Shown here in pieces: positions 47,576 through 64,000 of a DNA stretch of 64,000 bases. Made by a program: the position numbers and the translations under genes. The notes below the pieces were generated by a model. The model searched no databases, was not told where the DNA came from, and saw only the letters and a list, made by a program, of their open reading frames with translations. Every line of letters starts with the position of its first letter. Positions within the stretch are counted from its first letter, which is position 1. Source of the DNA: Clostridium sp. BJN0013 (GTDB lineage: Bacteria; Bacillota; Clostridia; Clostridiales; Clostridiaceae); contig NZ_CP162495.1 of the NCBI RefSeq assembly GCF_040939125.1, positions 1,860,001-1,924,000 of the forward strand, read 5' to 3'.

Positions 47576-47609
47576 ATTATATAATACGTAAGAGAAAGGA
47601 AGAGTGTTT

Positions 47610-47954
47610 ATGCCTTATATAAATTCAAGACTTACAATGGAACTTTCAAAAAAGCAAAAGGAAGATTTAAAGAGAAAAATGGGAGAAATTATTGGAGAAA
47701 TTCCAGGAAAATCTGAAGAATGGCTTATGGTAAGTTTTGATGATAATAAAACTGTTTATTTTAGAGGAAAAGAAATGGATAAAGCAGCTTTTGTGGAGGT
47801 AAAGATATTTGGAACTACTGAAAGGGAATATAAAAATAAGGTTACCCATTTAATATGTTCTCTTTATGAAAAAGAGCTTGATATACCAGGAGACAGCATA
47901 TATATAACTTTTAGTGAGGTAAGGGACTGGGGTTTTAATGGTAAATTATTCTAA
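47610..47954 (+). CDS. MIF/tautomerase-superfamily protein
   Basis: The 114-residue protein starts MPYINSRLTMELSKKQKEDL and contains GKSEEWLMVSFDD and SIYITFSEVRDWGFNGKLF, matching macrophage-migration-inhibitory-factor-type tautomerases. These use the N-terminal proline as catalytic base, so the start must be the ATG at 47610 (GGAAGAG nine bases upstream) and not the GTG at 47604. It sits 38 bases before the GTPase operon and may be its first gene or an unrelated neighbour. Confidence 0.8.
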   Translation: MPYINSRLTMELSKKQKEDLKRKMGEIIGEIPGKSEEWLMVSFDDNKTVYFRGKEMDKAAFVEVKIFGTTEREYKNKVTHLICSLYEKELDIPGDSIYITFSEVRDWGFNGKLF

Positions 47955-47992: not shown

Positions 47993-48997
47993 ATGGAGGA
48001 GAAAAAACAACGTGAACTTGAGGAATTAAGTGATGAAGTGGATATAATACTTTCATATAAAGATACTATATCCACAGAGGAAATAAATAATTTTGTAAAT
48101 AAATTCTCCTTATTATCTGAATATGAGATAAGAGAAAAAATAAAAGAGTTAACTGGAGACAGTCTATATATACAGGAATCTGATGACAAAGCCATAGAAG
48201 AAAAGCAATATGAAGATATAAAAAAAATAGAGATCATGGAAAGTACAGAAGAGGATTTAAAACCGCATAATAATGCATCTCAGGACTCTGAGGCTAAAAG
48301 TATGTCAGAAAATGAACCTTTCTATAATACACCAGAGGAAGTATTTGATATAAATAATATTCCAGAAGTTTCTTTTGTAAAGGCCGAAGTGAAGTATGGA
48401 CAGCTCTCTTTGGAGTGGGGATGGCCCCGGGGTATAAACAAGGTTATGCTGTGTTATAGAATGGATAGGTTTCCTTCAGGATATAAGGATTCTTCTGCCC
48501 ATCAGATTTTAATAGAAAAAAAAGATCCTTCTTCTGCAGGAGATTATATAATGGATAGGGTAGTGGAGGGAAACTACTATTTTTCCATTTATACTTTAGT
48601 TGAATGTGGAGGAAAAATGATATTTTCCCAGGGTCAAAGAAGACTTGTAATAAATAAGATACCTCAGGAAATATTTTATGAGATAAAAATAAGAAGAAAT
48701 ATTTTAGGTAAATTAAAAAGTGCGGAGTTGATTTTATCTACAGATAAAAAAGAAATAAATGTTCCACCGCTTGTTTTGATTGGTAGAGTGGGGAATATGC
48801 CTCTTCAAAAATCCCAGGGAGAAACTCTGGTTACCACAGATTATCAAACTTTTACAAAGAATGAAAGATTATCTTTTCCCATATCAACTGACAGTATAGG
48901 AAGAAATATGTATGCAAAATTATTTTTTGTAGAAGATATAAACAGTAAAATGTATAGAATAATATCTCCGGCAAAGAATAAGTTATATTTTAAGTGA
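47993..48997 (+). CDS. Beta-sandwich protein of the GTPase operon (copy A)
   Basis: The 334-residue protein has an acidic helical N-terminal region (residues 1-125) without a clear family. Two beta-rich domains follow: one fibronectin-III-like (VKYGQLSLEWGWPRGINKVMLCYR...YYFSIYTLVECGGK) and a second with EIFYEIKIRRNILGKLKSAELILS. The same two blocks occur in the 215-residue protein at 61979 (FTIRWRWPKDIDIVYIVK and KIYYEIRQIKPLRSFFSKEKILQIII). It is paralogous to that protein and precedes a zinc-ribbon GTPase in both places, so it is probably an adaptor for the GTPase. Confidence 0.65.
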   Translation: MEEKKQRELEELSDEVDIILSYKDTISTEEINNFVNKFSLLSEYEIREKIKELTGDSLYIQESDDKAIEEKQYEDIKKIEIMESTEEDLKPHNNASQDSEAKSMSENEPFYNTPEEVFDINNIPEVSFVKAEVKYGQLSLEWGWPRGINKVMLCYRMDRFPSGYKDSSAHQILIEKKDPSSAGDYIMDRVVEGNYYFSIYTLVECGGKMIFSQGQRRLVINKIPQEIFYEIKIRRNILGKLKSAELILSTDKKEINVPPLVLIGRVGNMPLQKSQGETLVTTDYQTFTKNERLSFPISTDSIGRNMYAKLFFVEDINSKMYRIISPAKNKLYFK

Positions 48998-49033
48998 CTT
49001 TGAATATAAGGTACATGATAAGGAGGTTTTCGG

Positions 49034-50212
49034 ATGAAGTTTAACTTAAAAAAGAAAGATTATTACATATGTCCCTATTGTTTCTCAAAACATAGTTTAA
49101 ATGATGTGAACTTTATATGTAAAAATGATCCTGACATATGTAAAAATGCCAAAGAAGGCATTATACTGAAACCAGATAGAGAGGAAAATAAAAATGAAAT
49201 ATTAGATTCTATATGCTGCGGAGAATGTGGAGAGAGAACTCATATAAAGATATGTCCAACCTGTCAGGCAGAATTGCCTTTTGCCATAGGACAATATGAT
49301 GATTTGGTATTTGCAGTAATTGGGGCAAAAGAAGCAGGGAAAAGTCATTACATTGCAGTTCTGATAAATAAAATAATGAATGAAATAGGCTCTGCCTTTA
49401 ATTGCAGTCTTTCTGCAGTAAATGATGCCACCATAAACAGATATAGAAATGATTTTTATAATCCTGTTTTTAAAAGAAACGAGCTTATAAGGGTAACCCG
49501 TTCCGCTAAAACAGATTCCTCTGTAAAACAGCCTCTTATCTATAACCTTACATTTAAAGAACAGGGTATTATGGGGAAATTTTTTAAAAGCAAGAGAATA
49601 AGTAATGTAGTTACCATTGCTTTTTTTGATACTGCAGGTGAAGACCTGGATTCTGAAGATACTATGAAAACTGAAAATAGATATATATATAATTCTTCCG
49701 GTATAATATTTCTTCTTGACCCACTGCAGCTAGAAAATGTAAGAGAAATGCTGCCAGAGGGAACAGTACTTCCTGAGGAAAATACAAAAATAGAGGATTT
49801 GCTCTCAAGGACTGCAAATCTAATTAGAAAGGCAAATGGTATAAAAATGAATAAGCTTATAGATATACCTGTAGCTGTGGCTTTTTCAAAAATGGATGCA
49901 GTGGAATCTTTAGTAGATCCCTCCAGTTGTATAAATTATCCCAGTAAACATATAAGCAGGGCCTGTTTTGACTTATCAGATTTTGAGGATATGAATGGAA
50001 CTATGGAATCTTTGGTTAGAAGCTGGGGAGGAGAAAACTTTGCAGAGCAGCTCAGCCTAAATTTTAAAGAATATGGATATTTTGGGTTAACTGCTTTAGG
50101 ATGTAATTCTGTAGATGGGAAAATTACAAAATTAAGACCTCATAGGGTAGAGGATCCCTTTTTATGGCTTTTATACAAACATAAACTGATAAAGGGAGAA
50201 AAAAGGAAGTGA
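49034..50212 (+). CDS. Zinc-ribbon P-loop GTPase, DO-GTPase type (copy A)
   Basis: The 392-residue protein opens with two zinc-binding segments (CPYC at 13-16; CCGECG and CPTC at 61-77). Its GTPase domain has Walker A GAKEAGKS (97-104), the G3-like FDTAGED (D199) and the base-recognition motif FSKMD (residues 284-288, for NKxD). A helical tail ends DPFLWLLYKHKLI, which the GTPase at 62677 shares as EPFLWLLYCMNYL. This fits the DO-GTPase2 group found in predicted conflict systems. It lies next to a GAP1-like gene in each of its two occurrences. Confidence 0.75.
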   Translation: MKFNLKKKDYYICPYCFSKHSLNDVNFICKNDPDICKNAKEGIILKPDREENKNEILDSICCGECGERTHIKICPTCQAELPFAIGQYDDLVFAVIGAKEAGKSHYIAVLINKIMNEIGSAFNCSLSAVNDATINRYRNDFYNPVFKRNELIRVTRSAKTDSSVKQPLIYNLTFKEQGIMGKFFKSKRISNVVTIAFFDTAGEDLDSEDTMKTENRYIYNSSGIIFLLDPLQLENVREMLPEGTVLPEENTKIEDLLSRTANLIRKANGIKMNKLIDIPVAVAFSKMDAVESLVDPSSCINYPSKHISRACFDLSDFEDMNGTMESLVRSWGGENFAEQLSLNFKEYGYFGLTALGCNSVDGKITKLRPHRVEDPFLWLLYKHKLIKGEKRK

Positions 50213-50221
50213 TTGTGAGTT

Positions 50222-52894
50222 ATGGCAATTAAACAGCTTTTTTATACTTCATGTAAAAGGGGGGTATCTTCAGGTATGGGATTCCAGACATATTCCATGT
50301 CAGAAGGTATCAGCCATGAAGAACGAAAAGAAATAGAGAGCTATTGTGTATATATACCTCCGGACAATCTACCTACATTGCCTTCTCATGAAGAAATAGA
50401 TAAATTGTTTCCACTATCTTTTTCCTCTTTTAAACTTAAAAATAATAAATACTGTATATGCAGCAGCAAATATATAGGCAGAGATTATTCAGGAAGATAT
50501 GGAAATTACTTTTGTCATGTGCTAATATCCCAAGAGCCCTGGGATTTTTATCCCATAGAACTTTATGGCTCTCCTGTTTTTAGGGAATTTCTCACGGATG
50601 AAGAGCAAAATAGAGAAGAAATTGCATATCTGCCGGAGCTGGAAGAAATACCTTTAGGCAATATAATTAATTTTGATACCATAAGCCAATTTCTTAAAAA
50701 AGGTGCAGTAGGTAAAAAAAGAAAGAGTTTTATACAGCTTATGGAGTCAGTTCTGGATTATAGTGAAAGCAAAAAAAGAATAATATACTGTGATGATAAA
50801 GATAATGTACCCTTCTGGATTGGGGCAGTTTTAATGTGTCTTCCTAAAAAATTGGCCAGGCAATTTAGCTTTACTACTTACTGTTATAATCCTGAGGATT
50901 TAAATTGTATAATTTGTGCTGTAGATAAAAAAGGAAGTAAATTTAATTTTAAAGAGAGTCAGAAATCATATATGTATCACATCCATAATTTTTCCGGGGA
51001 GTTTAATTATGAAGTTAACTACAGCAGCAGTTTCATAAAACTGGCTGAAGTAGGGTATACAGTCTCCAAAGAAATATTTTTACCTTTTATAGATTTTATA
51101 AGTCAGTTTGAATATAATTTTTTGGATAAAGATATAGATAACTGTGTAAATCTATATAATATAGTGAAAAGAGGAATAGAAAAATCCAATATTGAAAATA
51201 TTAAAAAAGCATTAAGTTTTGCAATTAACTATAAGTCCATAGGGGCTTATAATGAACTATTTGACATGCTTGTTCCAAAACTTGAAAAGATGAGTACTCA
51301 GGTAGACTTGGAACTTTTAGAGATAATAACAAAATTTTTATTTAAAGCTGGACTGGAAATAGAAAATAGGGAGTATGTAACAAAAACTTATGAATTCTTT
51401 TTTAATTCTATTCATTATCTATTGGTAGATGTTGAAGAGATTCCATTAGAAGATATAATAGATTTATATAATAAAATAAGAGAATTAGAACAGGTGTCTA
51501 CAGACCAGTTTGCTAGAGCTTCACTTAATATAGATAGAATAAAAAATATTGAAATCTATATTAAAGGGGGCAAGATAAGACATGCAAAGTTCTATTTTAA
51601 TACTTTGGTAAGGGATATAATTATATTTAACAATAAATGTGATACTGAAAGCAGAAAAGTTCTATTCAGCATGGAGCAGGAGGAAGATAAGAATATAACC
51701 ATTTTATTTAATAGGTGTCTGGAAATACTAATAAAATCTCCAGAAGATATTTTAGACATACTAAACTCTTTTAAAAAAGATTATGAATACTTTGCAAAGA
51801 TAATTTTAAGGGCTTATTATATTAATAATTATTCACAAAGACGCAATGAAGTTGAAAAAATTCTAGCAGGTTTTATTATAGATGAGGGAAATAAAGACAG
51901 TCAATGGAAGAGAAAAATATATTCTGAAATAAACAAGTTAAATGGTGCAGAGAATTTTTTCTTTTCCATATATAGTTTTGAACTAATAGAAAATGGTGAT
52001 AAAGAGAATTTTTTTGTAAATTATTGCCAAAATGTATTTTGTTTTTTTCAAGATTACAGAGATAAAAAATTTTCTGAATCCCTTGAATTATACCTATATA
52101 ATGAGGATATTCCGCTGGAAGAATATAAGAATATAATAGATTACATAGATAAGGGTTCTATAATAAGCCTAATCTCTAAAAATGTACTTGAAAAACTTTT
52201 TACAGATTTTGAAGAAAAGATTCATATAGAAGATGCAGAAAAGGAAAATTATATTATAGAAAAGGCTGTAGATATAAAAAATCAGTTTAAAATAAAAACT
52301 CCTTTAAGCATAACAGAGTTGTTGTATACGGGAAATAAAATTCAAAATTATAAAGAGGGCCATGAGGGTCATAAAGTTACACTTCTTAAAAAGATTAAAA
52401 TTGATTTTTCTAATATGGATGAATATGAATATGGAGAATATTTAAAATGGTTTTTATCTAACATATGTGTATACCTTGAAAATGCAGGGGAGCATTTTAA
52501 GGTTAAGAAGGCCCTTTGGTGTGAGAGGCATTCAAATATTTTTTATAGTGTATATATGGATACACTGGAGGATATTATACTTACCAAAAAGTATAAAGAT
52601 GTATTAAGAGCCTATGGCATAGAGGGATATACCATATTTCTGGATTTTATCATATCTACATTTAAGAATATGGATAGTATGGATGAGAAGTCAGAAGAAA
52701 TTTTAGATAATAGAATTATAGATATACTTACAAAGATTTCTGAAAGAAAATTAAAAGAGTATAATAGTTATTTTACAGAAAAGGTTAAAAGACTTGTGCA
52801 GGTAGAGCAAATTATCACAAGATGGCAGTATATTATGACTAAAGTACATGAAAAAAATAAAAATAAAAGCCGATTTAAATTTTTTAAGAAATAG
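50222..52894 (+). CDS. GAP1-like GTPase-associated protein (copy A)
   Basis: The 890-residue protein has an N-terminal domain (about 1-160) with IKQLFYTSCKRGVSSGMGFQTYSMSEGIS and YIGRDYSGRYGNYFCHVLIS, matching my knowledge of the GTPase-associated protein 1 N-terminal family. A middle domain follows (SVLDYSESKKRIIYCDDKDNVPFWIGAVLMCLPKKLARQFSFTTY, about 180-235), then about 650 residues of alpha-helical repeats. No membrane helix. It is encoded nine bases after its GTPase, so a direct complex is likely. Predicted role: scaffold or effector controlled by the GTPase. Not an established GTPase-activating protein despite the name. Confidence 0.7.
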   Translation: MAIKQLFYTSCKRGVSSGMGFQTYSMSEGISHEERKEIESYCVYIPPDNLPTLPSHEEIDKLFPLSFSSFKLKNNKYCICSSKYIGRDYSGRYGNYFCHVLISQEPWDFYPIELYGSPVFREFLTDEEQNREEIAYLPELEEIPLGNIINFDTISQFLKKGAVGKKRKSFIQLMESVLDYSESKKRIIYCDDKDNVPFWIGAVLMCLPKKLARQFSFTTYCYNPEDLNCIICAVDKKGSKFNFKESQKSYMYHIHNFSGEFNYEVNYSSSFIKLAEVGYTVSKEIFLPFIDFISQFEYNFLDKDIDNCVNLYNIVKRGIEKSNIENIKKALSFAINYKSIGAYNELFDMLVPKLEKMSTQVDLELLEIITKFLFKAGLEIENREYVTKTYEFFFNSIHYLLVDVEEIPLEDIIDLYNKIRELEQVSTDQFARASLNIDRIKNIEIYIKGGKIRHAKFYFNTLVRDIIIFNNKCDTESRKVLFSMEQEEDKNITILFNRCLEILIKSPEDILDILNSFKKDYEYFAKIILRAYYINNYSQRRNEVEKILAGFIIDEGNKDSQWKRKIYSEINKLNGAENFFFSIYSFELIENGDKENFFVNYCQNVFCFFQDYRDKKFSESLELYLYNEDIPLEEYKNIIDYIDKGSIISLISKNVLEKLFTDFEEKIHIEDAEKENYIIEKAVDIKNQFKIKTPLSITELLYTGNKIQNYKEGHEGHKVTLLKKIKIDFSNMDEYEYGEYLKWFLSNICVYLENAGEHFKVKKALWCERHSNIFYSVYMDTLEDIILTKKYKDVLRAYGIEGYTIFLDFIISTFKNMDSMDEKSEEILDNRIIDILTKISERKLKEYNSYFTEKVKRLVQVEQIITRWQYIMTKVHEKNKNKSRFKFFKK

Positions 52895-52938
52895 TAAAAA
52901 CTCATAATTGAACTGCCAGGAGGTGATTCTTAAAACAT

Positions 52939-54354
52939 ATGTTTAATTTTATTTCATTAGTGTTTTTAGGTACAGCAGGTATAATTGCAGGAATAGTTTA
53001 TGGATTTTTAAAGTGTGCCTTAAGCTATTTTAAAGCTTTCAACTATAGTTTTAATAGAAAATATTCACTGAAAACCAAGGCAAAATTGGGAGAACCTGCA
53101 GTGGAAAAATATTTTTTTAATAAACAGTATGAGGATTTGTCAAATACTTATGAAAGTGCAAAATCCATCAACAGTGGTAATATTTTAATGTTAAAAAGCC
53201 AGATGGAAACGAAATCATATTTTACATATTACAGGGTAAAAACTGCTCAAAAGGTAATATATATATTAGGTAATTTAATAAACGTAATCTGTGTTTCAAT
53301 ACATTTTTTAATAGTAACCATTATAAGTATGCCCATTTACCTGTTTTATTTTATAGTGTTATGTGGTGAAAAGTTTAAATTTAAAAAAGGAAAAATAGGA
53401 GGAGTGTGTCCAAGCTGTCTAACCAGGTTTGATATACCTTATTATATATGCCCAAATTGTGGAAGAGTTCATAAAATGCTAACTCCAGGACCCTATGGTA
53501 TAATTAAAAGAAAGTGCAAGTGTAAAGAAGTAATTCCCTGCACTAATTTAGGAGGAAGATTTAAGCTTCAGGCTATATGCCCTGTATGTGGAAAAGATAT
53601 TGAAAGCAGAGAATCCTCTCCTATATGTATACCTGTTGTAGGACCGGAATATTCAGGGAAGACTTCCTTTATATATTCTGCTATAAATACCTTAAGGGAT
53701 CATATTTCAAGAGAAAAAAAGTGGAATGTAGCATTTTTAAATCAAGATTGTGAGGATGAAATTAAAAAGTGTTTAGAATCTTTTAAAAAAGGTATTCCAC
53801 CTAAAAAGACTGATAACAGTCATACAGAGGTATATAATATTTTTATACATTCACCTAGATTTTTCAATAAAAAACTTTTATATTTTTATGATATTGCAGG
53901 GGAATATTTTAATTCAAGGGCTAATATAAGGACACAAAAACATTATAAGTATATAGAAGGTTTGATTTTTGTCATGGATCCCTTGTGCATGGCTCAGGGG
54001 GAAAGGTATATTAAAAAAGATGAATCTGTAAAAAGTAGGTTCAGAGATATAAAAAATATACATGATTTTATAGATCGTTTTATACTTGGATTAAGGGAAA
54101 TTAATCAAATCGAGCCTAAGAAACTTATTACAATACCTGCTGCAGTTGTAATAAATAAAATGGACTTGTTTGGGTATAGTGGACCTATAGAAGATTTTCT
54201 TCGGGAACTAGGAGAAGATGCCATAATAAAAAAATTTGAATATAACTTTGCAAATTATAAATTCTTTTCCTGCAGCCTGTTTCAATATGAAAAAACTGCT
54301 ACAGCAGAAGTTGTAAGCTGGATTTTAAGTGAAGCAAATAGTGAGCTTAAATAA
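52939..54354 (+). CDS. Membrane-anchored zinc-ribbon GTPase
   Basis: The 471-residue protein has an N-terminal membrane helix (about 5-27) and a hydrophobic hairpin (about 106-142). It then has zinc-binding cysteines (CPSC 157-160, CPNC 171-174, CKC 193-195, CPVC 214-217) and a GTPase domain with GPEYSGKTS (235-243), FYDIAGEY (D318) and INKMD (405-409). It is related to but more distant from the other two GTPases. It probably links the operon's products to the membrane. The 3' end overlaps only the non-used upstream part of the vWA frame. Confidence 0.75.
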   Translation: MFNFISLVFLGTAGIIAGIVYGFLKCALSYFKAFNYSFNRKYSLKTKAKLGEPAVEKYFFNKQYEDLSNTYESAKSINSGNILMLKSQMETKSYFTYYRVKTAQKVIYILGNLINVICVSIHFLIVTIISMPIYLFYFIVLCGEKFKFKKGKIGGVCPSCLTRFDIPYYICPNCGRVHKMLTPGPYGIIKRKCKCKEVIPCTNLGGRFKLQAICPVCGKDIESRESSPICIPVVGPEYSGKTSFIYSAINTLRDHISREKKWNVAFLNQDCEDEIKKCLESFKKGIPPKKTDNSHTEVYNIFIHSPRFFNKKLLYFYDIAGEYFNSRANIRTQKHYKYIEGLIFVMDPLCMAQGERYIKKDESVKSRFRDIKNIHDFIDRFILGLREINQIEPKKLITIPAAVVINKMDLFGYSGPIEDFLRELGEDAIIKKFEYNFANYKFFSCSLFQYEKTATAEVVSWILSEANSELK

Positions 54355-54367
54355 GGAGTGTATTATT

Positions 54368-56116
54368 GTGAAGAGCAAAACTAAATGGACTTTAGTTGTA
54401 ATTTTAATATGTGTGCTTCAGATGTTTTTTATTCCTTTTTCAGGGGTTGGAGCAGAGGAGGCTTCTAAAGGTACCAGCATGGATGTGATTTTTGCACTTG
54501 ATTCCAGTGGTTCCATGGCAGAAAGTGACCCTGAAAAAATACGGGAGGAAGCCATAAAGATGTTTCTTGATATGGGTCAGATTCAAGGTAACAAGGCAGG
54601 TCTTGTAGCTTATTCAGACAGCATAGTGAGAGAACATAATTTAGACAGTATAAATTCATCGGAAGACAGAGACAGAATAAAGAGTATGGCCTCTAATATT
54701 TCTCTTGGGCAGAAAACAGATACAGGCAGGGGACTTTTAGAGGCAGTAAAATTAATGGAAAGTGGCCATAAAAGTGGAAACAATCCGGTTATAATTTTAT
54801 TATCCGATGGGAAAAATGATCCTGAAAGGAGTCAGGATGAGTCTTTAAATGATTTAAAAAATGCCCTTCAAATCTGTAAAAGTAAAGGTTACCCTGTATA
54901 TACCATAGGACTTAATTATAATGGAACCGTAGATAAAACTCAGCTTGGTGACATATCCAGTTCAACTGGAGGTAAAAACTACATAACAAATACAGCCTCG
55001 GATCTTCCTGCCATCCTTACAGATATATATGCAGATAATTCAAAGCTTAAGGTTCAAGATGGAGGTACCATTAAAGCTAATGGGGATTTCCAGGAATTAA
55101 AGGTTAACATCCCCAATTCAAATGTACTTGAGGCCAATATATCAATGCTTTCAAGTACTCCTGTAGAAGTGAAACTTTTAAATCCTTCAGGAAGTGAGGT
55201 TTCCATACCTTCTGAAAATACCCTGTTTACCTCATCTAATAAATATTCAATGCTTAAACTTATCAACCCTGTAAAGGGACAGTGGACAGTTAAGGTTAAA
55301 GGAGTAAGTGGAAATGATATAAAAGTAAGTTATATATTTAACTATGATATTCAACTGAAGGCAGCCTTTACCCCTGAAAATCCAGGTAAGGGAGACAAGA
55401 TGAAGATTGAAGCTTATTTTACCAGTAATGGAAATAAGGTTACAGATGAGGAACTTTATAAAAATGCAGGGGCAAAACTCATTGTTAAAAATTTAAAAGA
55501 CAGCTTGTCTAAGGAAATACCTTTAATTTCAGAGGACAATTTATTTAAAGGTGAATATTCCTATTTGGAAGAGGGAAAATATGAGCTTAAGGTAAGAGTA
55601 GATGGAGACAGCTTTTATAGGGAAAGCAATACCCTGGTTATAGGAGATAATACTGGTGTGGGGACGCCTAAGGCCCAGCCAAAATCCTTTATTAAAAACC
55701 CAATAATTTTAACTGTAATTGGAATTATACTGGCAGCTATTTGTATTTATATAATTATTATAGTGATAAAGAAAAAACGTATCAGAGGCTTTGGACGCAT
55801 AGAGTTAAACATAAGGGATGAGAATACCGGTGAAGCTTTATCTCCGCAATTTAGAAATTTAGACAACTACACAGGAAGCTTTACTCTATTTGATGTATTG
55901 GGGCTTAAAGAAGAATATGCAGAAACTGAATCCATCAAATTTATATTTAAAAAGGATGACAGCATAGAACTAATTAATAAGTCAAACTGTACCCTTCAAA
56001 GGTCAGGAAAAATATTGGAAAATAACTCCGGCATAATACTTTATAATGGAAATAAAATAAAAGTGTTTTTAAATAAAGTTCCAAAAAGCATACTGGTGGA
56101 ATTTCATGCTAAATAG
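54368..56116 (+). CDS. Exported, membrane-anchored vWA-domain protein
   Basis: The 582-residue protein has a signal peptide (about 1-29, ending SGVGAEE) and a von Willebrand A domain with a complete MIDAS: DSSGSM (D45, S47, S49), TDTGRGLLEA and LLSDGKND. Beta-sandwich segments of about 200 residues follow, then a membrane helix (IILTVIGIILAAICIYIIIIV, about 440-462) and a cytoplasmic tail of about 115 residues. The GTG at 54368, behind AAGGAG, is chosen over the upstream frame start because it gives a clean signal peptide. The domain plan puts the metal-binding vWA outside and a tail inside. Confidence 0.8.
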   Translation: MKSKTKWTLVVILICVLQMFFIPFSGVGAEEASKGTSMDVIFALDSSGSMAESDPEKIREEAIKMFLDMGQIQGNKAGLVAYSDSIVREHNLDSINSSEDRDRIKSMASNISLGQKTDTGRGLLEAVKLMESGHKSGNNPVIILLSDGKNDPERSQDESLNDLKNALQICKSKGYPVYTIGLNYNGTVDKTQLGDISSSTGGKNYITNTASDLPAILTDIYADNSKLKVQDGGTIKANGDFQELKVNIPNSNVLEANISMLSSTPVEVKLLNPSGSEVSIPSENTLFTSSNKYSMLKLINPVKGQWTVKVKGVSGNDIKVSYIFNYDIQLKAAFTPENPGKGDKMKIEAYFTSNGNKVTDEELYKNAGAKLIVKNLKDSLSKEIPLISEDNLFKGEYSYLEEGKYELKVRVDGDSFYRESNTLVIGDNTGVGTPKAQPKSFIKNPIILTVIGIILAAICIYIIIIVIKKKRIRGFGRIELNIRDENTGEALSPQFRNLDNYTGSFTLFDVLGLKEEYAETESIKFIFKKDDSIELINKSNCTLQRSGKILENNSGIILYNGNKIKVFLNKVPKSILVEFHAK

Positions 56117-56152
56117 GTTAAAAGGTAAACTTATATGAAGGGAAGATAAATT

Positions 56153-59100
56153 ATGAACAGTAGAATTAGAGAACATCTTCAAGACCTTGAAGTAAGCAGG
56201 GGAGGAGGAATTATAAGCGATAAAATACGTATAGAAACCATACCAAATCCCATGCTTATAATAGGACTTGGAGGAACTGGCATAGATGCAATGCTTAGAT
56301 TGAAATATCAAATCAACAAAAGATTTATCCTGGAGGAGGATACTATTTCAAATACAAGAAAAGATAAGCCCAAAAAAGTAGAATTTTTAGGCTTTGAAAC
56401 CAACCAGGGAGAAAAGAATAAAAGATATCCTGGAAATGGGGGGGTGGGACTTGACCCTCAAAGTGAATTGGTCATGCTGTCAAATGCAGAAATAAGATCT
56501 ATTTTAAAAGATCGTAAAATATTGGATGACTGTATAAAGGAGTGGCTGTCACCGGAGCTGTCTTCTGAAAGTGGTACCGATGGTGCAGGAGGGGTAAGAC
56601 AGGTAGGAAGACTTTTACTATTTACAAAAATCAATGAAATTGTTGACTGTATTGAAAAGAAAATAAGATTACTGCAGGAAGACAAAGAAGAAACTCTTCA
56701 TGTATTTATACTTTCCGGACTTTCAGGGGGAACTGGCAGTGGTACTTTTATAGATATAGCCTATATAGTAAGGGGAATAATGAATAATATATATGGCTCA
56801 AAAGGTGATGACAAGGTAAATATAATGGGATATTTATTTACTCCTGATGTAAATTTGTCGAGGTCTGCGGATAATCAGTCTTCACAATCCTATATTATAA
56901 AAAATGGTTTTGCAGCACTTAAAGAGTTGGATTATCTCATGGGTATAGGAGACAGACACGAGAGATTCACACAGAAATACAGAAACAGACTTACTGTAGA
57001 TTCACCAATGCCCCCTTTTAATTTGTGTCATTTGATTTCTGCCACCAATATAGATGGAAGACCCATGAGTAATGCCTATGATTACTGTATGAATGTTACA
57101 GCGGAAAATATTGTTAATTTCATGTCCAGTGAAGTAAGGGAATCCGGTGGAGTATTTGCAATACAGGATTATATAAGTAATTTAAAACAAAATACTGATA
57201 ACATGGCAAAGCCCTATATGTCAAACTACAAATATGTAATTATAGGAGCATCTTCTGCAGTACTGCCTCTGGAAGAAATAACTACATATCTTGCCTATAA
57301 ACTTTTTGAAAAAATGCAGTATATATTTCATAATATTCCAGAGGAAAATGAAGTGGATAAGTTTATAAAAAGGCTTAATCTGGACGAGGATGGTGTAATT
57401 GAAAGATTTGAAGAGCAGGTTCAAAACAGGAAGCCAATAACAGGGTACAAAGATAGAGAAAAATACAACTATAGCAATGTAATAAAAAAACAATCAGTTA
57501 ATATTGATGAGGAAATGAAAGAATATTTAAGAGACTGTATAAATGAATATAATAAAGTGAAAGTTCAATATCCAGGACAAATTCAAAAAGAAGTACGGGA
57601 ATTGGTAGATGGAATTTTTAAAGATCCAAAAAGAGGACCTTTTTATGCATCTAGAATTTTATTTTCCAAAGGCTTTTGTGTTATAAAGACATTGGAGGTA
57701 GAAATTACATTCCTTAAGGAAAGATTGTCTAATATATCCCGGGAAATAAAGTTAAAAAAGGAACTAGCTGAGGATAAATTTATACAGGCTAAAAAAGCAA
57801 TTTTGTTCACCAAAGAGGGTAGAAAAAATGATTTCATAGAAGCAAAAAGTGAGGAGTATATATTAAAAGCAGAAGAAGAAAGAATCATAAGAATGATAGA
57901 GTTCTATGAAAAAGTAATTGAAAATTTAAGCCAATTAAATAATAGAATATACAAGGTATATACAGATATATTAAATGAATTAAATAAAATATTTAAAGAA
58001 GACGGGGATATACTGGCAAAAGGTGAAGAAATAGAAGGGGCTCTTGGAAGGACTTATTCCTGGACGGTAGTTAGGGTGCCGGATTTAACAGACTATATAG
58101 AGAGGGTTGTAAACAAGGAAACTGCAGATGAACTGGTGAGAAAATTCTCCTATAAACTTTTGGAAGAATCCCAGAAGTGGCTGGATGAGGTTCACATAGA
58201 TGTGGTGGGCTCAATTTCAAATTTTGTCTCTGAAGAGTACGGAAGTGTAATAACCCAGTCCATGGAGGAATTTTTATCTCTTGAATATGGAGAAGATAAA
58301 TCAATTATCAGCATAATAAAGGATAAAATAGCACCAAAACTTGATAAGGATGCAGTTCCTATTTTCCATATAAATAATATGGAAGCTTTGAATTTTCCTA
58401 CATGGAGCATGGTTTCAGTACCTACAAACGCCAAAAAGATTCTTGAGGGAATTAAAGAGTATAAGAGAAATTCCCATAAGGGTGATTCTATTAATATTAA
58501 AAAAAGTACAGTGACTAACAGGATATTCTGGCTTAACACCAAAAATGGAGTACCTCTTTATTCCTATGCCCCTATAAAGCATTATGAAGAAATTTATGAA
58601 AAAACACTATTTGAAAGAGATGGAATAGGAAGACACTTATATCAAAGTGAAAATAAAAACTGGATATATCTCCCTTCACCTATTCCAGAGCAGTCCTGGG
58701 GTACAACTTATGTAAATGAAAGGGTAAAGAACTATAATGAGGAGGTAAGAGGCCTTTTTAAAAGGGCAATGGAACTTGGATGTATAGTAGATACGGAAAA
58801 AGGAAGCAATGAAAGATATAAATGTATTATTACAAAAAAGTTTAATATTGATGAATTTATGAATCAGTACAGTATTGATATGCAGGAAGATAAACCTAAT
58901 GTAGGGGAAATAAAAAGGGCAATATCGGATATTGAAAAACTTTTGGAAGAGGGAATTACCCCTGTGGAAAACCATGATATGCAGAAATATTATATATTTG
59001 AAAGCAGTGATGAGGAAAAGGCACAAAATAATCTTATAAGAACTCCTGAACTTACCAAACTTTTAAGAGGAGAAGTAGAAAAATATGAAACAATTCTGGC

Positions 59101-59563
59101 TAAGAAAGAGGAGCTTTGTAATATAATAGAAAATTTAAGCAAGTCTCAAGCAGATATGGATAATTTTATAAGGGCTTTATATACAGATACTATAGCGAAA
59201 AAGGGGGTATTTTATGTTTACAATGGAGGAGAAGAGAGTAAAGTAAGTATAGAACCTTTTATAAACACTTTAAAACAAAAGGAATATCAGCATGAAGCTA
59301 TATTTAGAAAATATGTTTCACTAGATGAAAGAGATAAGGTAATTATAGATGTAACCTCTGATAGAAGGCTTGAAAATCTTTCAATGGAGGAGAATACTAA
59401 AACTCTTATTTTAAATATAGATACTCTCCTAGAAACTTTTAAAGATTGTGTTCGGGAATTGGATATCAGAAAATATCAACTGGTAAATGGAGATGAACTT
59501 TTTGCTTTCTACAATGAAATACTTTCAAGGCTGCAGGAAGTAAGAAAACAATTGGAACAATAG
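56153..59563 (+). CDS. Tubulin/FtsZ-like GTPase (Tubulin_2 type) with long helical extension
   Basis: The 1136-residue protein begins with a tubulin-like fold: PMLIIGLGGTGIDAMLRLK (residues 33-51) and the tubulin signature ILSGLSGGTGSGTFIDIAYIV (about 187-205). LGYLFTPDVNLS-like strands follow. The remaining about 800 residues are mostly helical and coiled-coil (570-640 and 1000-1060 especially). This is the Tubulin_2 class of large prokaryotic tubulin-like proteins, known mainly from bioinformatics. It may form filaments or a GTP-controlled scaffold. It is the centre of the operon and its largest protein. Confidence 0.8.
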   Translation: MNSRIREHLQDLEVSRGGGIISDKIRIETIPNPMLIIGLGGTGIDAMLRLKYQINKRFILEEDTISNTRKDKPKKVEFLGFETNQGEKNKRYPGNGGVGLDPQSELVMLSNAEIRSILKDRKILDDCIKEWLSPELSSESGTDGAGGVRQVGRLLLFTKINEIVDCIEKKIRLLQEDKEETLHVFILSGLSGGTGSGTFIDIAYIVRGIMNNIYGSKGDDKVNIMGYLFTPDVNLSRSADNQSSQSYIIKNGFAALKELDYLMGIGDRHERFTQKYRNRLTVDSPMPPFNLCHLISATNIDGRPMSNAYDYCMNVTAENIVNFMSSEVRESGGVFAIQDYISNLKQNTDNMAKPYMSNYKYVIIGASSAVLPLEEITTYLAYKLFEKMQYIFHNIPEENEVDKFIKRLNLDEDGVIERFEEQVQNRKPITGYKDREKYNYSNVIKKQSVNIDEEMKEYLRDCINEYNKVKVQYPGQIQKEVRELVDGIFKDPKRGPFYASRILFSKGFCVIKTLEVEITFLKERLSNISREIKLKKELAEDKFIQAKKAILFTKEGRKNDFIEAKSEEYILKAEEERIIRMIEFYEKVIENLSQLNNRIYKVYTDILNELNKIFKEDGDILAKGEEIEGALGRTYSWTVVRVPDLTDYIERVVNKETADELVRKFSYKLLEESQKWLDEVHIDVVGSISNFVSEEYGSVITQSMEEFLSLEYGEDKSIISIIKDKIAPKLDKDAVPIFHINNMEALNFPTWSMVSVPTNAKKILEGIKEYKRNSHKGDSINIKKSTVTNRIFWLNTKNGVPLYSYAPIKHYEEIYEKTLFERDGIGRHLYQSENKNWIYLPSPIPEQSWGTTYVNERVKNYNEEVRGLFKRAMELGCIVDTEKGSNERYKCIITKKFNIDEFMNQYSIDMQEDKPNVGEIKRAISDIEKLLEEGITPVENHDMQKYYIFESSDEEKAQNNLIRTPELTKLLRGEVEKYETILAKKEELCNIIENLSKSQADMDNFIRALYTDTIAKKGVFYVYNGGEESKVSIEPFINTLKQKEYQHEAIFRKYVSLDERDKVIIDVTSDRRLENLSMEENTKTLILNIDTLLETFKDCVRELDIRKYQLVNGDELFAFYNEILSRLQEVRKQLEQ

Positions 59564-59614
59564 TTTTGAAGGTAAGGTTAGGCCTTGCCTTCCATTTCCT
59601 TAGGAGGAATTTTT

Positions 59615-61948
59615 ATGGAGCATATGTTGAAGAGTTTCAAGGAAGAATATGATTCAGTAATTCACAGAAGAATTTATCATGGTAAAGGAGGAAGGAGTGT
59701 AAATAATCCTATACTTTTTGTATTTTTGGGAGAAGGCGTCAAAGAAGCATATGAACATATAGAAAGCAGTATAAGGCAACAATGGGACAATGGAGAAGGT
59801 ATAGCCTTTATAAATATTACTGTAGATAATGTAGAGGATAAAGACAACTCCTTTAATTTTCAATTTGAATTTGATCTTGAAGATAAAAAGTGTTTGAGAA
59901 AAAATATCAGAGAAAAATTTTATAATGATAAGGAAAATCTGGAATATTTAAATAAAAAAATAACAATGGCAAGAGATAAAATACTATCCAATGGAAGTTT
60001 GTTTAATTCTTTTGAAAATATAAGTATTTCTGTAATTACTGCTTCAGATGATCCTTTTAATATAATAGTTCCAGAAATAACTTTGCTTATAAGAAAAAAG
60101 ATGATGGAAGTATTTAAGACAGGTACTTTAGATCTTTATATTCTCATAAGGGAAAAAAATATGGAAGATGAATTTTTTTCCAGGGCAGTTTCGGTAAGCT
60201 TTTTTAGGGAAGTAGAATATATGCAAAGTGATAATTTTAATTTTAATGAAAAAATAGATGTGTACGGAGAGGGTAGGGAGCTTTCTGTAAGTTTTAAGGG
60301 AGCTGTATTTTATATGACCTACGTCCTGGAAGAAAAAAATGAAAAGGGCATAATACCAGAGAGCTCCATGGTCAATAATTACGAAATAATATCCTATATT
60401 AACCTTATAAAAAATAAAAGTATAAATATTGATAGTTTTGCAAATACGGAAAATCAGCATTACGATAATGCAAGGTTCAAAGCAAATATATTAAGGGAAG
60501 GTTTTATAAACAGATATGTTACCGCAGGGCTTTCTAAAGTGAGGAGACCAGGAGGTGCCATTTGTATAACAGTACTTAAGGCTTTTTACGAAAGAATTAT
60601 AGATAAATTGAATGAATTCTCTATAAAAAAAGTGGAATTTATAACTGAAATCTTAAAAATAGACGAGTCAGGTTTAAATCTAACAGTGGATAATATTTTA
60701 CCAAAGCACATATCTGTAATGGATATGAAAGGCATTATGATGTCACCTATTTCAAGACTGGAAAGATTTACTTTAAAACAAATTGAAGAAAAGTTGTATA
60801 GAGATAGATGTAAAAATTTTTTTAAGGAAAATTTTATAAAGCCTTCGGAAAATAATCTGGAAGCCATAAATTTTGAGGCACAGATTAAAGCTTTAGTAAA
60901 GAAAAATATAATAGATAACACTAAGTTAGGATTATACTGTGCTTTAAAGTGGACAGGGGAAGAAGGAGAGACAGTAAAATATTTAAGAGATAAAATAAAC
61001 TCTATGGATATGCTTATAAATAACATAAAAAATGAAGTCAATAACCTATATGAATCAAGATTTATAGAAGGTTTCAGCCTTAAAAATATTTTTGTCAAAA
61101 GTAAAGGATTAAAGGAAGCAAAGAAAAAAATATTTAAGGAAATATATCCTAGAAAGCTTGAAATTTTAAAGTTAAGTATTTCAAAAAAAATTCTTAAACA
61201 ATATGAATGTATTTTACTGGAAATCCATAATCAGCTTTTAGAAGAAATGGGAAAGCTTACCTGCATTGGAGAAGTAATTAATAAATATGAAGACAAAACA
61301 ATAAAAGGTGAAGATGACTATGCAGCACAAAATGTAAAAGCTTATTATAAAAATGTGGTAAATAATATTTTGGATGATCTTGAAAAAAATTATGGTGAAG
61401 CTTTTTATCTGGAAGATAACTATATAGGAAATATTTCAATAGGATTAAGGGAAGGAAAGGAAAAAATACTTGAAAAAATGATACTGTTTTGCAATAAATA
61501 TATTTTAACACAAGATGAATTTAACCAATCCTTTGAAGAAGAGTTCAATAAAAGAACCAATATTAGTCTTTCCGACTATAATCTAAAGGTACTTTCCAGG
61601 GAGGAACTTTACCGTAAACTTTACAATATGCTTGAGGATAATTCTGCCCTTAAAAGCCATATTATGAATTATGACGTAAAGATGTACCAGGAGAAATATT
61701 TTTTTGGAGATTACAGCAGTGATTTTATAAAATATGCTTTTGATTTTGACAGAAAAACGAGAAACTATAAAATAGGATATATACATGAAATAAAAAGCAG
61801 CGGTATTGAAAAATTAAATCTAATGGGAGGATTCGGGGCAAAGGATATTATTTATATAAAATCTTCTATTGAATTTTATGATTATTGTCTGAAAAAGGGA
61901 TACCTGCTTCATGGTATTGATATAAACCTATTGCCTCATATAATTTAG
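59615..61948 (+). CDS. Large protein of the operon, possible GTP-site-less tubulin paralogue
   Basis: The 777-residue protein starts at ATG 59615 behind TTAGGAGGAAT. I recognise no catalytic motif. Its N-terminal region parallels the tubulin-like protein: NPILFVFLGEGVKEAYEHI in place of PMLIIGLGGTGIDAMLRL, then ISVITASDDPFNIIVPEITLLIRKKMMEVF in place of ILSGLSGGTGSGTFIDIAYIVRGIMNNIY, followed by TLDLYILIRE. The glycine-rich GTP signature is lost. The rest is helical. It may be a non-hydrolysing partner of the tubulin-like protein. That relation is my reading of the alignment by eye. Confidence 0.55.
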   Translation: MEHMLKSFKEEYDSVIHRRIYHGKGGRSVNNPILFVFLGEGVKEAYEHIESSIRQQWDNGEGIAFINITVDNVEDKDNSFNFQFEFDLEDKKCLRKNIREKFYNDKENLEYLNKKITMARDKILSNGSLFNSFENISISVITASDDPFNIIVPEITLLIRKKMMEVFKTGTLDLYILIREKNMEDEFFSRAVSVSFFREVEYMQSDNFNFNEKIDVYGEGRELSVSFKGAVFYMTYVLEEKNEKGIIPESSMVNNYEIISYINLIKNKSINIDSFANTENQHYDNARFKANILREGFINRYVTAGLSKVRRPGGAICITVLKAFYERIIDKLNEFSIKKVEFITEILKIDESGLNLTVDNILPKHISVMDMKGIMMSPISRLERFTLKQIEEKLYRDRCKNFFKENFIKPSENNLEAINFEAQIKALVKKNIIDNTKLGLYCALKWTGEEGETVKYLRDKINSMDMLINNIKNEVNNLYESRFIEGFSLKNIFVKSKGLKEAKKKIFKEIYPRKLEILKLSISKKILKQYECILLEIHNQLLEEMGKLTCIGEVINKYEDKTIKGEDDYAAQNVKAYYKNVVNNILDDLEKNYGEAFYLEDNYIGNISIGLREGKEKILEKMILFCNKYILTQDEFNQSFEEEFNKRTNISLSDYNLKVLSREELYRKLYNMLEDNSALKSHIMNYDVKMYQEKYFFGDYSSDFIKYAFDFDRKTRNYKIGYIHEIKSSGIEKLNLMGGFGAKDIIYIKSSIEFYDYCLKKGYLLHGIDINLLPHII

Positions 61949-61978
61949 ATTTTGAATCATCTAAAGGAAGGTAATGTT

Positions 61979-62626
61979 ATGAAAATAGTTGAACTTTTAG
62001 ATAATAAAGATGAAATATACAATATAAGTTGGGAACTGGATAGGGATAAATTTACTATAAGATGGAGATGGCCCAAAGATATTGATATAGTGTATATAGT
62101 AAAAACAAATACCCTGGATAATTTTTCTCTAGATAATATAGATAAAAATAATGTTAAATTATATACTAGGGAGGAATATAGAGAATTTAATGGATACTGT
62201 GAAGCTGTAAGAGAAATAAGCCAATATACATATTATATTTTTCCTGCAGTTGAAAAAGAAGATGAGATCTTGCTTTTAAAACAGGAAAATGGCAAAAACA
62301 AAGTATTGATAAACACGGGAAAACCTAAAATTTATTATGAAATAAGGCAGATAAAACCTTTGAGAAGTTTTTTTTCCAAGGAAAAAATATTACAGATTAT
62401 TATAGATTCAGAAGCAGCTTTAAATAAAGATGTGTTATGCTATGTGAAAAAGTTAAATTTTTATCCACTTAATAAAGAAGATGGTATAGCTTTTGATTTT
62501 ATTGACAATATTTCTGCAGGAAAAAATGTTATGCCAAAGATAAGGGTGGGAAAAAATGAGTATGTAAAAGTTTTTATAAAAGATACAGATAAATATGGCA
62601 GTGCCTATACTTTAAAAGGAAAGTAA
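61979..62626 (+). CDS. Beta-sandwich protein of the GTPase operon (copy B)
   Basis: The 215-residue protein starts at the ATG 61979 behind AAAGGAAGG. It has the two beta-domain blocks of the 334-residue protein at 47993 (WELDRDKFTIRWRWPKDIDIVYIV and PKIYYEIRQIKPLRSFF), but not that protein's acidic N-terminal region. It is followed, as there, by a zinc-ribbon GTPase gene. Likely an adaptor. No enzyme motif seen. Confidence 0.6.
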   Translation: MKIVELLDNKDEIYNISWELDRDKFTIRWRWPKDIDIVYIVKTNTLDNFSLDNIDKNNVKLYTREEYREFNGYCEAVREISQYTYYIFPAVEKEDEILLLKQENGKNKVLINTGKPKIYYEIRQIKPLRSFFSKEKILQIIIDSEAALNKDVLCYVKKLNFYPLNKEDGIAFDFIDNISAGKNVMPKIRVGKNEYVKVFIKDTDKYGSAYTLKGK

Positions 62627-62676
62627 AAATAATATCTGGCAAGTTTAATTTTCTTTGCAGGAAAGGAGCAGGGTTT

Positions 62677-63954
62677 ATGGGCTTTTTAAAAATTTTTTCT
62701 GGAAACAGAAAAAAACAAAATAATGATTATATAAAAGCAACTTATGAAAAGGGGCCTTTTATGATAAAATGTCCTTTTTGTTTTAAAAAGTTTAAAACTG
62801 ATCAGGTGATTTTTAGGGCCTCTCACTTTGAAAAGGGAGATCCTGAATATGAAAAAACAGTAGATGAAGTGCTTAATGAATACAATAAAAAGATAGGAAA
62901 AGGGCTGCTTGGAGAAATAAACCCTGTAGTCAGGGCAGAAAGTCTTCCAGAGAGCAGTAAAACAAGGGTGGATAAAGTGCTTATAGAAATTAAGGATAAG
63001 TACGATATAAGTACTAATGAAAGGCTGTGTCCCCACTGTCACAATGAGCTTCCCATAACCTCGGGAAGAGGACCTTCTAAAATTATTTCCGTTGTAGGGG
63101 CTTCCCAGGCAGGAAAATCTGTATACATGACAACTCTTTTATATGTTCTTGAAAGATATACCTGTGAAAGAATAGGTGCTTCCATAATTGCAGGAAGTTC
63201 CACATATAACGATGAAATAAGAGAAAATCAGGAAAGAATTTTTGACAGAAATATAATGCCGGACCCTACCCCAAAACAGCATATGGAACCACTTATAGAA
63301 AATTTTAAATTTAAAGATGATAAAATACCACCAATTACCCTCATTTTTTATGACGTACCTGGAGAGGGTATGACGGACAAGGGGTATATAGAAAAACACG
63401 GAGAACATATAAAGAATTCCGACGGTATAATATTTCTTGTAGATCCCCTGCAGATGAGGGCTCTAAGAAAAAAGATAAATATTGCAAACAGGGAATTTAA
63501 AGGAGATTTTACAGAAAAATATCAAGAATCAAAAGATATAATTGTATATTTATTTGAAAATTTTATATCTAAGCAGTCAAGAGAGAGAACCCCTATACCT
63601 ACGGCGGTAGTGATAACTAAAAGTGATATGCTGAAAAATTTAAATGATGAAGAATACATAAGTAAAAACAGTAATATATTTAAAAATTACAACCACAGAA
63701 AGTTTTTTAATTTAAATGAATTTGAAAATATTGACGGTGAAGTGAGAAAATTTTTAGCCAGGGTAGACAGTGCTTTCAAAGGAGCTATGGATACATATTT
63801 TAAAACTACAGGATACTTTGCAGTATCATCTTTGGGATGTAATCCTCATAACCTTCAAATAGACAGCAGTACAAGTATAAATCCCGTGAGAGTGGATGAA
63901 CCTTTTTTGTGGCTGCTTTACTGCATGAATTATTTAGATGGGGGAAGAGAGTAA
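62677..63954 (+). CDS. Zinc-ribbon P-loop GTPase, DO-GTPase type (copy B)
   Basis: The 425-residue protein has one pair of split zinc-ribbon halves (CPFC 32-35 and CPHC 118-121, separated by an 80-residue charged insert). Its GTPase domain carries GASQAGKS (141-148), FYDVPGEG (D226) and ITKSD (313-317). The C-terminal block EPFLWLLYCMNYL matches copy A. The start follows AAAGGAG. The second zinc ribbon of copy A is reduced here. Stop and next start are one base apart. Confidence 0.75.
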   Translation: MGFLKIFSGNRKKQNNDYIKATYEKGPFMIKCPFCFKKFKTDQVIFRASHFEKGDPEYEKTVDEVLNEYNKKIGKGLLGEINPVVRAESLPESSKTRVDKVLIEIKDKYDISTNERLCPHCHNELPITSGRGPSKIISVVGASQAGKSVYMTTLLYVLERYTCERIGASIIAGSSTYNDEIRENQERIFDRNIMPDPTPKQHMEPLIENFKFKDDKIPPITLIFYDVPGEGMTDKGYIEKHGEHIKNSDGIIFLVDPLQMRALRKKINIANREFKGDFTEKYQESKDIIVYLFENFISKQSRERTPIPTAVVITKSDMLKNLNDEEYISKNSNIFKNYNHRKFFNLNEFENIDGEVRKFLARVDSAFKGAMDTYFKTTGYFAVSSLGCNPHNLQIDSSTSINPVRVDEPFLWLLYCMNYLDGGRE

Positions 63955-63955
63955 A

Positions 63956-64000
63956 ATGATTGAACAACATTATTACACAAGGGATAGAAAAGGAGTTTTC
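63956..64000 (+). CDS. Start of a second GAP1-like gene, cut by the window end
   Basis: The frame begins MIEQHYYTRDRKGVF and runs off the window. It has the same opening pattern as the GAP1-like protein at 50222 (MAIKQLFYTSCKRGVSS: hydrophobic strand, YT, basic residues, GV) and the same position directly after a zinc-ribbon GTPase gene. Only 15 residues are visible, so the call rests mainly on context. Confidence 0.55.
   Translation, partial: MIEQHYYTRDRKGVF

Follow-up and report, generated by a model that had tools for sequence, protein, structure and literature searches.

Two computational studies describe the systems closest to the locus reported here. Makarova and Koonin (2010; PMC2875224) described operons in which the tubulin-like protein FtsZl1 is encoded with vWA proteins and GTPases and proposed a role in membrane remodelling; their FtsZl1 alignment includes Clostridium kluyveri. 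Kaur et al. (2020; PMC7159879) defined, also computationally, DO-GTPase, GAP1-N1 and GAP1-N2 and a tubulin theme, proposed a function in biological conflict and suggested tubulin multimers as the effectors. As the passages of that paper on the subject describe it, the firmicute tubulin theme has two tubulin-domain genes with a C-terminal coiled coil, two vWA genes, one of them encoding a fusion to a YtkA domain, and a highly polar C-terminal extension of GAP1, and the GAP1-N2 systems include an FNIII-repeat protein and a DO-GTPase with zinc ribbons and a Walker B glutamate (DxxGE). A paper of 2024 on phage shock proteins (PMC11237479) mentions a DO-GTPase in the context of membrane stress. No experimental work on the tubulin-type GAP1/DO-GTPase system was found in the open-licence PubMed Central literature. 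Here we describe a ten-gene operon in a stretch of 64,000 nucleotides from Clostridium sp. BJN0013 (contig NZ_CP162495.1; the whole stretch is referred to as the window), and this locus is almost certainly a firmicute tubulin-type GAP1-N2/DO-GTPase system, that is, an FtsZl1 system.

The operon started at position 47993 of the window and comprised ten genes (A to J), all on the forward strand and all with open frames. The intergenic gaps ranged from -26 to +50 bases. Gene extents and gaps were measured on the longest open reading frames (ORFs), and some real starts probably lie further downstream. The features were as follows, with lengths in amino acids (aa).

A, 47993 to 48997, forward strand: FN-like protein, probable beta-sandwich, 334 aa, a paralogue of H (ORF and profile comparison)
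B, 49034 to 50212, forward strand: zinc-ribbon DO-GTPase, 392 aa (DO-GTPase2 at 9.2e-5, under the cut-off)
C, 50222 to 52894, forward strand: GAP1 protein, 890 aa, with GAP1-N2, GAP1-M and a long C-terminal part
D, 52939 to 54354, forward strand: DO-GTPase, 471 aa, with N-terminal hydrophobic segments and Cys pairs
E, 54329 to 56116, forward strand: vWA protein, 595 aa (Pfam VWA)
F, 56153 to 59563, forward strand: Tubulin_2 or FtsZl1 protein, 1136 aa, with GTP-binding loops
G, 59585 to 61948, forward strand: divergent paralogue of the Tubulin_2 type that lacks the GGTGSG loop, 787 aa (longest ORF)
H, 61952 to 62626, forward strand: FN-like protein, 224 aa, with a probable start at ATG 61979
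I, 62677 to 63954, forward strand: zinc-ribbon DO-GTPase, 425 aa (DO-GTPase2, 43 bits)
J, 63938 to 64000 and on to L003:1786, forward strand: second GAP1 protein (GAP1-N2 and GAP1-M), 282 codons

A sequence-only reading of the window had noted ten adjacent, co-directional genes with short gaps and had named the families GAP1, DO-GTPase, Tubulin_2 and VWA. Both observations were borne out, the families by Pfam, with B slightly under the DO-GTPase2 cut-off. The same reading was correct that GAP1, DO-GTPase and Tubulin_2 had been grouped computationally (PMC7159879). Its description of the system as undescribed did not hold, as the arrangement is in Kaur et al. (2020; PMC7159879) and the tubulin in Makarova and Koonin (2010; PMC2875224), in the passages of those papers that deal with them.

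Tubulin-like proteins F and G

F matched the Pfam family Tubulin_2 with an E value of 2e-87. Two GTP loops, GLGGTG and GLSGGTGSG, were read in its sequence, and GGTG[ST]G was kept in 79 of 80 relatives of F, these being the best 80 of 255 found in a scan of genome contigs with the window's F. Like FtsZl1, F is a long protein with an FtsZ-like N-terminal domain that carries a GGGTG(S/T)G-type loop. A search of solved structures with F gave no match at an E value of 1 or less, and the same search with G gave one match only, at E 0.26.

The window's own G had no Pfam match over the cut-off and was not among the G proteins that matched Tubulin_2; such matches were detected in 24 of 45 aligned G proteins (Pfam, E ≤ 0.1), the best at 1.1e-5. 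Comparison of the G and F profiles with hhalign gave an E value of 3.9e-6 and a probability of 87. For the N-terminal halves of the two, the score was 50.0; the best of 60 controls with shuffled columns reached 32.2, and the reversed profile 14.5. The alignment of G with F started immediately after the position of the GTP-binding loop. At that position F reads GLSGGTGSG, the corresponding sequence is DDPxN in 59 of 80 G proteins, and a GGGTGTG-like loop was present in none of the 80 G relatives. At the N-terminus, F was read as NPMLIIGLGGTG and G as NPILFVFLGEGV. Judged from these alignments, G is a divergent tubulin paralogue without a canonical GTP site, which it appears to have lost. Because G is without the GTP-binding loop, F and G would form an active/inactive tubulin pair, a detail that is new here. 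The sequence-only reading had listed G as a large partner of the tubulin; the gene is present as stated, but its product is better described as a divergent tubulin without the usual GTP site. An 11-pair hairpin at window positions 59568 to 59592, in the F-G gap, might adjust the F:G ratio, although sites of this kind were not more frequent than in shuffled sequence.

GTPase modules and vWA proteins

Both GAP1 proteins were recognised by Pfam, with E values for GAP1-N2 and GAP1-M of 3e-38 and 1.1e-18 in C and of 3.2e-38 and 4e-17 in J. D (29.3 bits) and I (43 bits) were over the curated DO-GTPase2 cut-off of 27, and B, at 22.6 bits, was just short of it. The motifs GxxxxGK[ST], DxxGE and [NST]KxD, together with N-terminal CxxC pairs, were read in the sequences of all three GTPases; they took the form GAKEAGKS, DTAGE and SKMD in B, where they were kept in 12 of 12 relatives, and GASQAGKS, DVPGE and TKSD in I, while D carried DIAGE. 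A search of solved structures with the GTPases gave two weak matches to an ABC ATPase, the better at E 0.009. For D, a simple scan detected hydrophobic segments at residues 2 to 20 and 123 to 141. This gene was present in 10 of the 12 named Clostridium loci, one of which has it divided into two ORFs, and was absent in C. ljungdahlii and C. ragsdalei. Among 11 D ORFs, two of which are pieces of one gene, G1 was observed in 7, DxxGE in 6 and G4 in 5, and this membrane GTPase seems to degenerate repeatedly in Clostridium.

The profiles of the FN-like proteins A and H were homologous to each other, with a probability of 99.1 and an E value of 4e-19. Neither protein had a Pfam match over the cut-off or matched an FNIII model, and the only matches to solved structures were at E 0.9 to 1.2. 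A search of NCBIfam gave no match over a curated cut-off. As A-B-C and H-I-J both follow the order FN-GTPase-GAP1, the two sets are, on the evidence of sequence, two copies of one switch module. B was 28.6% identical to Clostridium I proteins and 28.9% identical to Bacilli I proteins, while the two I groups were 46.3% identical to each other (jackhmmer, with phmmer as a fallback). Recent duplication of H-I-J within Clostridiaceae as the origin of A-B-C was considered and rejected, since B is equidistant from both I groups; this equal distance indicated that the A-B-C module is older or was separately acquired.

E matched Pfam VWA at 4.5e-22 and has a metal ion-dependent adhesion site (MIDAS)-type DSSGS sequence (DxSxS). 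The simple scan detected an N-terminal hydrophobic segment and a second segment at 462 to 480, which fits the earlier suggestion that the vWA protein may lie at the surface; the conserved C-terminal domain is probably cytosolic. A YtkA domain was not detected in E at an E value of 1 or less, and the vWA domain was followed by more beta-rich sequence. A further gene, vWA2, was present at the locus in 77 of the 80 relatives, and the remaining 3 contigs ended in or soon after G. No vWA2 gene was detected between G and H at the locus in the window's genome (G000) or in those of two relatives, G011 and G004, and the G-H spacing in all three was approximately 30 bases of near-identical sequence. A search of the whole of the window's genome, with G011 and G004 judged at the locus, detected no vWA2 orthologue: the best match was E itself, at 28% identity, and the next had an E value of 0.009. 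The window's locus was thus found with one vWA gene and without the second one of the firmicute tubulin theme.

Only 63 bases of J, from its start at 63938, lie inside the window. The end of the J ORF adjoins an IS110 transposase gene on the opposite strand (L003:1873-3144). In the close relative G011, J encodes 359 aa, and a tail-like sequence was detected beyond the IS110 element in the window's genome; J is thus split by an IS110 element. The sequence-only reading's claim of two GAP1-like proteins therefore stood as to the presence of C and J, but the second is a gene that reaches the window with 63 bases and is split. In G004, an IS110-like element interrupted J close to the opposite end of the gene. 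As the two transposases are 25% identical (BLASTP E 2e-14) and different ends of J are affected, the insertions in the window's genome and in G004 were taken to be independent.

The synonymous divergence (dS) of J was 0.085 between the window's genome and G004 (214 codons) and 0.255 between G011 and G004 (292 codons). This ranking is the reverse of that for A to I and for rpoB, and recombination at the J end is possible. Downstream of the operon, L003:6697-8462 contained a MacB-like permease ORF (182 aa) followed directly by a DDE transposase gene, as if the transporter had been interrupted by an insertion.

Conservation, distribution and divergence of the locus

Gene order was surveyed with each of the record pairs G005/L026, G006/L021 and G015/L025, probably the same records, counted once; the Bacilli loci were from Paenibacillus, Brevibacillus, Saccharibacillus and Bacillus sp. 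An uninterrupted E-F-G-vWA2-H-I-J order was observed in 55 of 67 Bacilli loci. Another ORF lay between members in 9, and the contig ended in or soon after G in the other 3. The eleven-gene form, in which A-B-C-D is joined to E-F-G-vWA2-H-I-J, was uninterrupted in 9 of 12 Clostridium loci, and A-B-C was present in all 12 named Clostridium loci. A to D were detected at none of the 67 Bacilli loci, a result for the locus only and with little upstream sequence in L038, L046 and L051. They were not detected in L106 either, a locus from a different family of the order; the Lutispora locus (L032) starts within E and was uninformative. In 11 of 84 loci, members were separated by additional ORFs (110 aa or longer), some of them on the other strand. 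As the same arrangement was observed at 80 loci in other species, the operon is not a chance grouping, and the comparison of neighbourhoods in other Firmicutes that the sequence-only reading had proposed gave a conserved co-occurrence.

Several neighbouring genes recurred beside these loci. In Bacilli, a divergent zinc-ribbon membrane gene (~313 aa) adjoined E in 64 of 66 loci scored, forming a divergent pair (e.g. L045:4634-7386) with a gene for a protein of ~600 aa that had relatives in 41 of 67 loci; this partner matched a bacterial SH3 domain in L045 and had no Pfam match in L034. A gene with a zinc ribbon and a YARHG domain followed J in 5 of the 12 named Clostridium loci and in L114 and L115 (G003, G005), for example at L020:20291-21112. 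No YARHG-domain gene was detected downstream of J in the stretches examined for the window's genome, G011 and G004.

In the window's genus, Tubulin_2 was over the curated cut-off in 6 of 13 genomes, and the same 6 had GAP1-N2. Among 206 genomes of the window's family (Clostridiaceae, by inference), Tubulin_2 was detected at 1e-15 or better in 31, of which 19 had a long tubulin type (E 3.1e-68 or better) and 12 another type (1.3e-50 to 7.2e-46). GAP1-N2 (E ≤ 1e-10) was present in 19 of 19 genomes with the long tubulin and in 0 of the 187 others. In 18 of these 19 carriers, two GAP1-N2 copies were on the contig of the tubulin gene and within 14 kb, G191 having a third copy elsewhere; in the nineteenth carrier, the tubulin gene was on a 5-kb contig. 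All 19 carriers had genomes of at least 4.0 Mb, in a comparison that lacks the sizes of most non-carriers. The second Tubulin_2 kind, in 12 of the 206 genomes (e.g. G023), occurred without GAP1-N2 and had open frames of 934 to 969 aa in 11 genomes and 389 in one; at L108:7600-10380, such a gene adjoined a 769-aa ORF matching the vWA2 profile.

The ratio of nonsynonymous to synonymous divergence (dN/dS) was determined for the window's genome against G011, with which it shares 98% RpoB identity, and G004. Values were 0.05 to 0.07 for B and I, 0.09 for F, 0.13 to 0.22 for A, C, D, E, G and H, and 0.26 to 0.32 for J, compared with 0.02 for rpoB and 0.17 to 0.24 for a flanking DUF1129 gene. The operon genes are under purifying selection. 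In a comparison of 14 Clostridiaceae with 14 Bacilli, identity averaged 68% for RpoB, 49% for F, 46% for I, 38% for E, 35% for vWA2, 34% for H, 31% for G and 27% for J. The trees of F, I and G had 18, 17 and 19 of 26 splits, respectively, in common with the RpoB tree, and for none of the three did a split in conflict with RpoB reach a support of 95 in both trees. The RpoB topology was rejected by the approximately unbiased (AU) test for F (p 1.6e-34), I (1.2e-83) and G (6.9e-5). Overall, inheritance has been mostly, perhaps not wholly, vertical.

The true start of H is probably ATG 61979, later than that of the longest ORF; AAGGAAGG-ATG is common to the window and two relatives. One further gene lies 38 bases upstream of A:

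MIF/tautomerase gene, 47604 to 47954, forward strand: Pfam MIF at 9.4e-8

This is a possible first gene of the A to J transcript. It was not conserved, the relative G011 keeping only a 40-residue piece. Promoter-like sites (95, against 98.2 in shuffles) and terminator-like sites (9, against 8.6) were not enriched; as they are no commoner than in shuffles, they cannot define the transcript.

Proposed mechanism, alternatives and comparison with known systems

We propose a membrane-linked, GTPase-switched tubulin scaffold, a mechanism which, taken as a whole, we give an even chance of being correct. With its vWA MIDAS, E would bind a ligand on the outer side of the membrane and pass its state through the membrane helix to the conserved C-terminal domain. 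The FN-like adaptors, DO-GTPases and GAP1 proteins would constitute two GTP switches working in parallel, one made up of A-B-C with D and the other of H-I-J, and these would control the assembly of the tubulin pair F and G at the membrane. G, predicted to be unable to bind GTP by the usual loop, may serve as a partner, cap or regulator of F, and the output would be a regulated membrane-attached scaffold or remodelling machine rather than a toxin. The observed base of this mechanism consists of the families, the motifs, the F/G, A/H and B/I paralogy, the gene order, the co-occurrence and the purifying selection; from it we infer membrane signalling, complex formation, filament formation and the output of the A to J system.

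Several points weighed against this mechanism. The system is patchy, occurring in 19 of 206 family genomes. The 80 loci, as the best of 255, understate diversity. With the flanking gene at a dN/dS of 0.17 to 0.24, the operon values are not exceptional. Rapid evolution of G and of the FN-like and GAP1 proteins could also reflect an arms race, and rejection of the RpoB topology makes horizontal transfer possible, as for an accessory or immune system.

Some of these points bear on the leading alternative, an anti-phage conflict system in which FN-like and GAP1 proteins sense the invader, the GTPases act as the switch and the assembly of tubulin serves as effector. We consider this alternative unlikely but worth keeping in view. 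The passages of Kaur et al. (2020; PMC7159879) on such neighbourhoods place them among conflict systems with tubulin multimers as effectors, and the patchy distribution, the conflict with the RpoB tree and the fast evolution of the FN-like and GAP1 proteins are in its favour. However, no variable effector was detected, extra ORFs being confined to the 11 of 84 loci given above, and tubulin F is 49% identical between classes. PADLOC gave one weak match among the ten operon proteins, DpdA on G at E 0.023. PADLOC was also run on 10 flanking proteins, two of which were named from sequence reading and not from Pfam. Here mad3 was among the models matched by a MacB-type ABC ATPase (4.7e-32), CARF-LolE models were matched by a permease (2.2e-13), and SduA was matched by a probable response regulator (1.3e-4); these matches were read as shared generic domains. 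The conflict label of the sequence-only reading thus gained no support from a nearly constant gene content, the lack of an effector domain and one weak PADLOC match.

The constant gene content and the lack of a recognised effector favoured a cytoskeletal machine linked to the membrane rather than an immune system of the classical kind, and the strong conservation of F and the GTPases is better explained by a regulated scaffold than by an immune system with swapped effectors. In a more specific and still more tentative form of the proposal, GTP-binding F and an obligate pseudo-tubulin G would assemble under the membrane, turned on or off by two parallel GTPase-GAP1 switches reading an outer vWA sensor, and would form an inducible envelope cytoskeleton distinct from immunity.

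Decay of the locus in the window's strain, with vWA2 gone, J split and the remainder non-working, is improbable. vWA2 was missing at the locus in all three genomes of the group, with no orthologue elsewhere in the window's genome, and IS110 and IS110-like elements lie in J of the window's genome and of G004, respectively. However, A to I are open with a dN/dS of at most 0.22 (very recent loss would be invisible to dN/dS), J still codes for GAP1-N2 and GAP1-M, and C is a full-length GAP1 protein. A role of F in DNA segregation, like that of TubZ for plasmids, is very improbable, as membership of the tubulin superfamily is all that speaks for it and the locus is chromosomal, includes membrane and vWA genes and has no DNA-binding family recognised by Pfam among its ten products.

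The Tubulin_2/GAP1/DO-GTPase core differs very little among the 80 nearest loci, which range from Clostridium to Paenibacillus. The putative active/inactive tubulin pair and the doubled switch offer a cheap and concrete handle on the function of the operon, and the same features bear on whether the label of conflict system suits the tubulin branch.

Alpha/beta tubulin and BtubA/B are pairs of tubulin paralogues that are made together. Compared with these, G is without a GTP-binding loop, and a heterodimer of F and G is putative. The FtsZl1 operons of Makarova and Koonin (2010; PMC2875224) include OmpA-type proteins in some genomes, whereas the OmpA model was unmatched by the ten window products, and GAP1 is not named for those operons in the passages of that paper that describe them. 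The corresponding text of Kaur et al. (2020; PMC7159879) does not mention loss of the GTP loop in the second tubulin or doubling of the module. As in the systems described there, the locus encodes zinc-ribbon DO-GTPases, one with N-terminal hydrophobic segments, together with GAP1-N2 and FN-like proteins, and, as in the firmicute theme, two tubulin genes (F and G) and a membrane vWA protein (E). D has two hydrophobic segments in the simple scan, compared with four N-terminal segments and one C-terminal segment in that description. The window's locus differs further in having two FN-GTPase-GAP1 modules, three GTPases, one vWA gene and a second GAP1 gene split by IS110.

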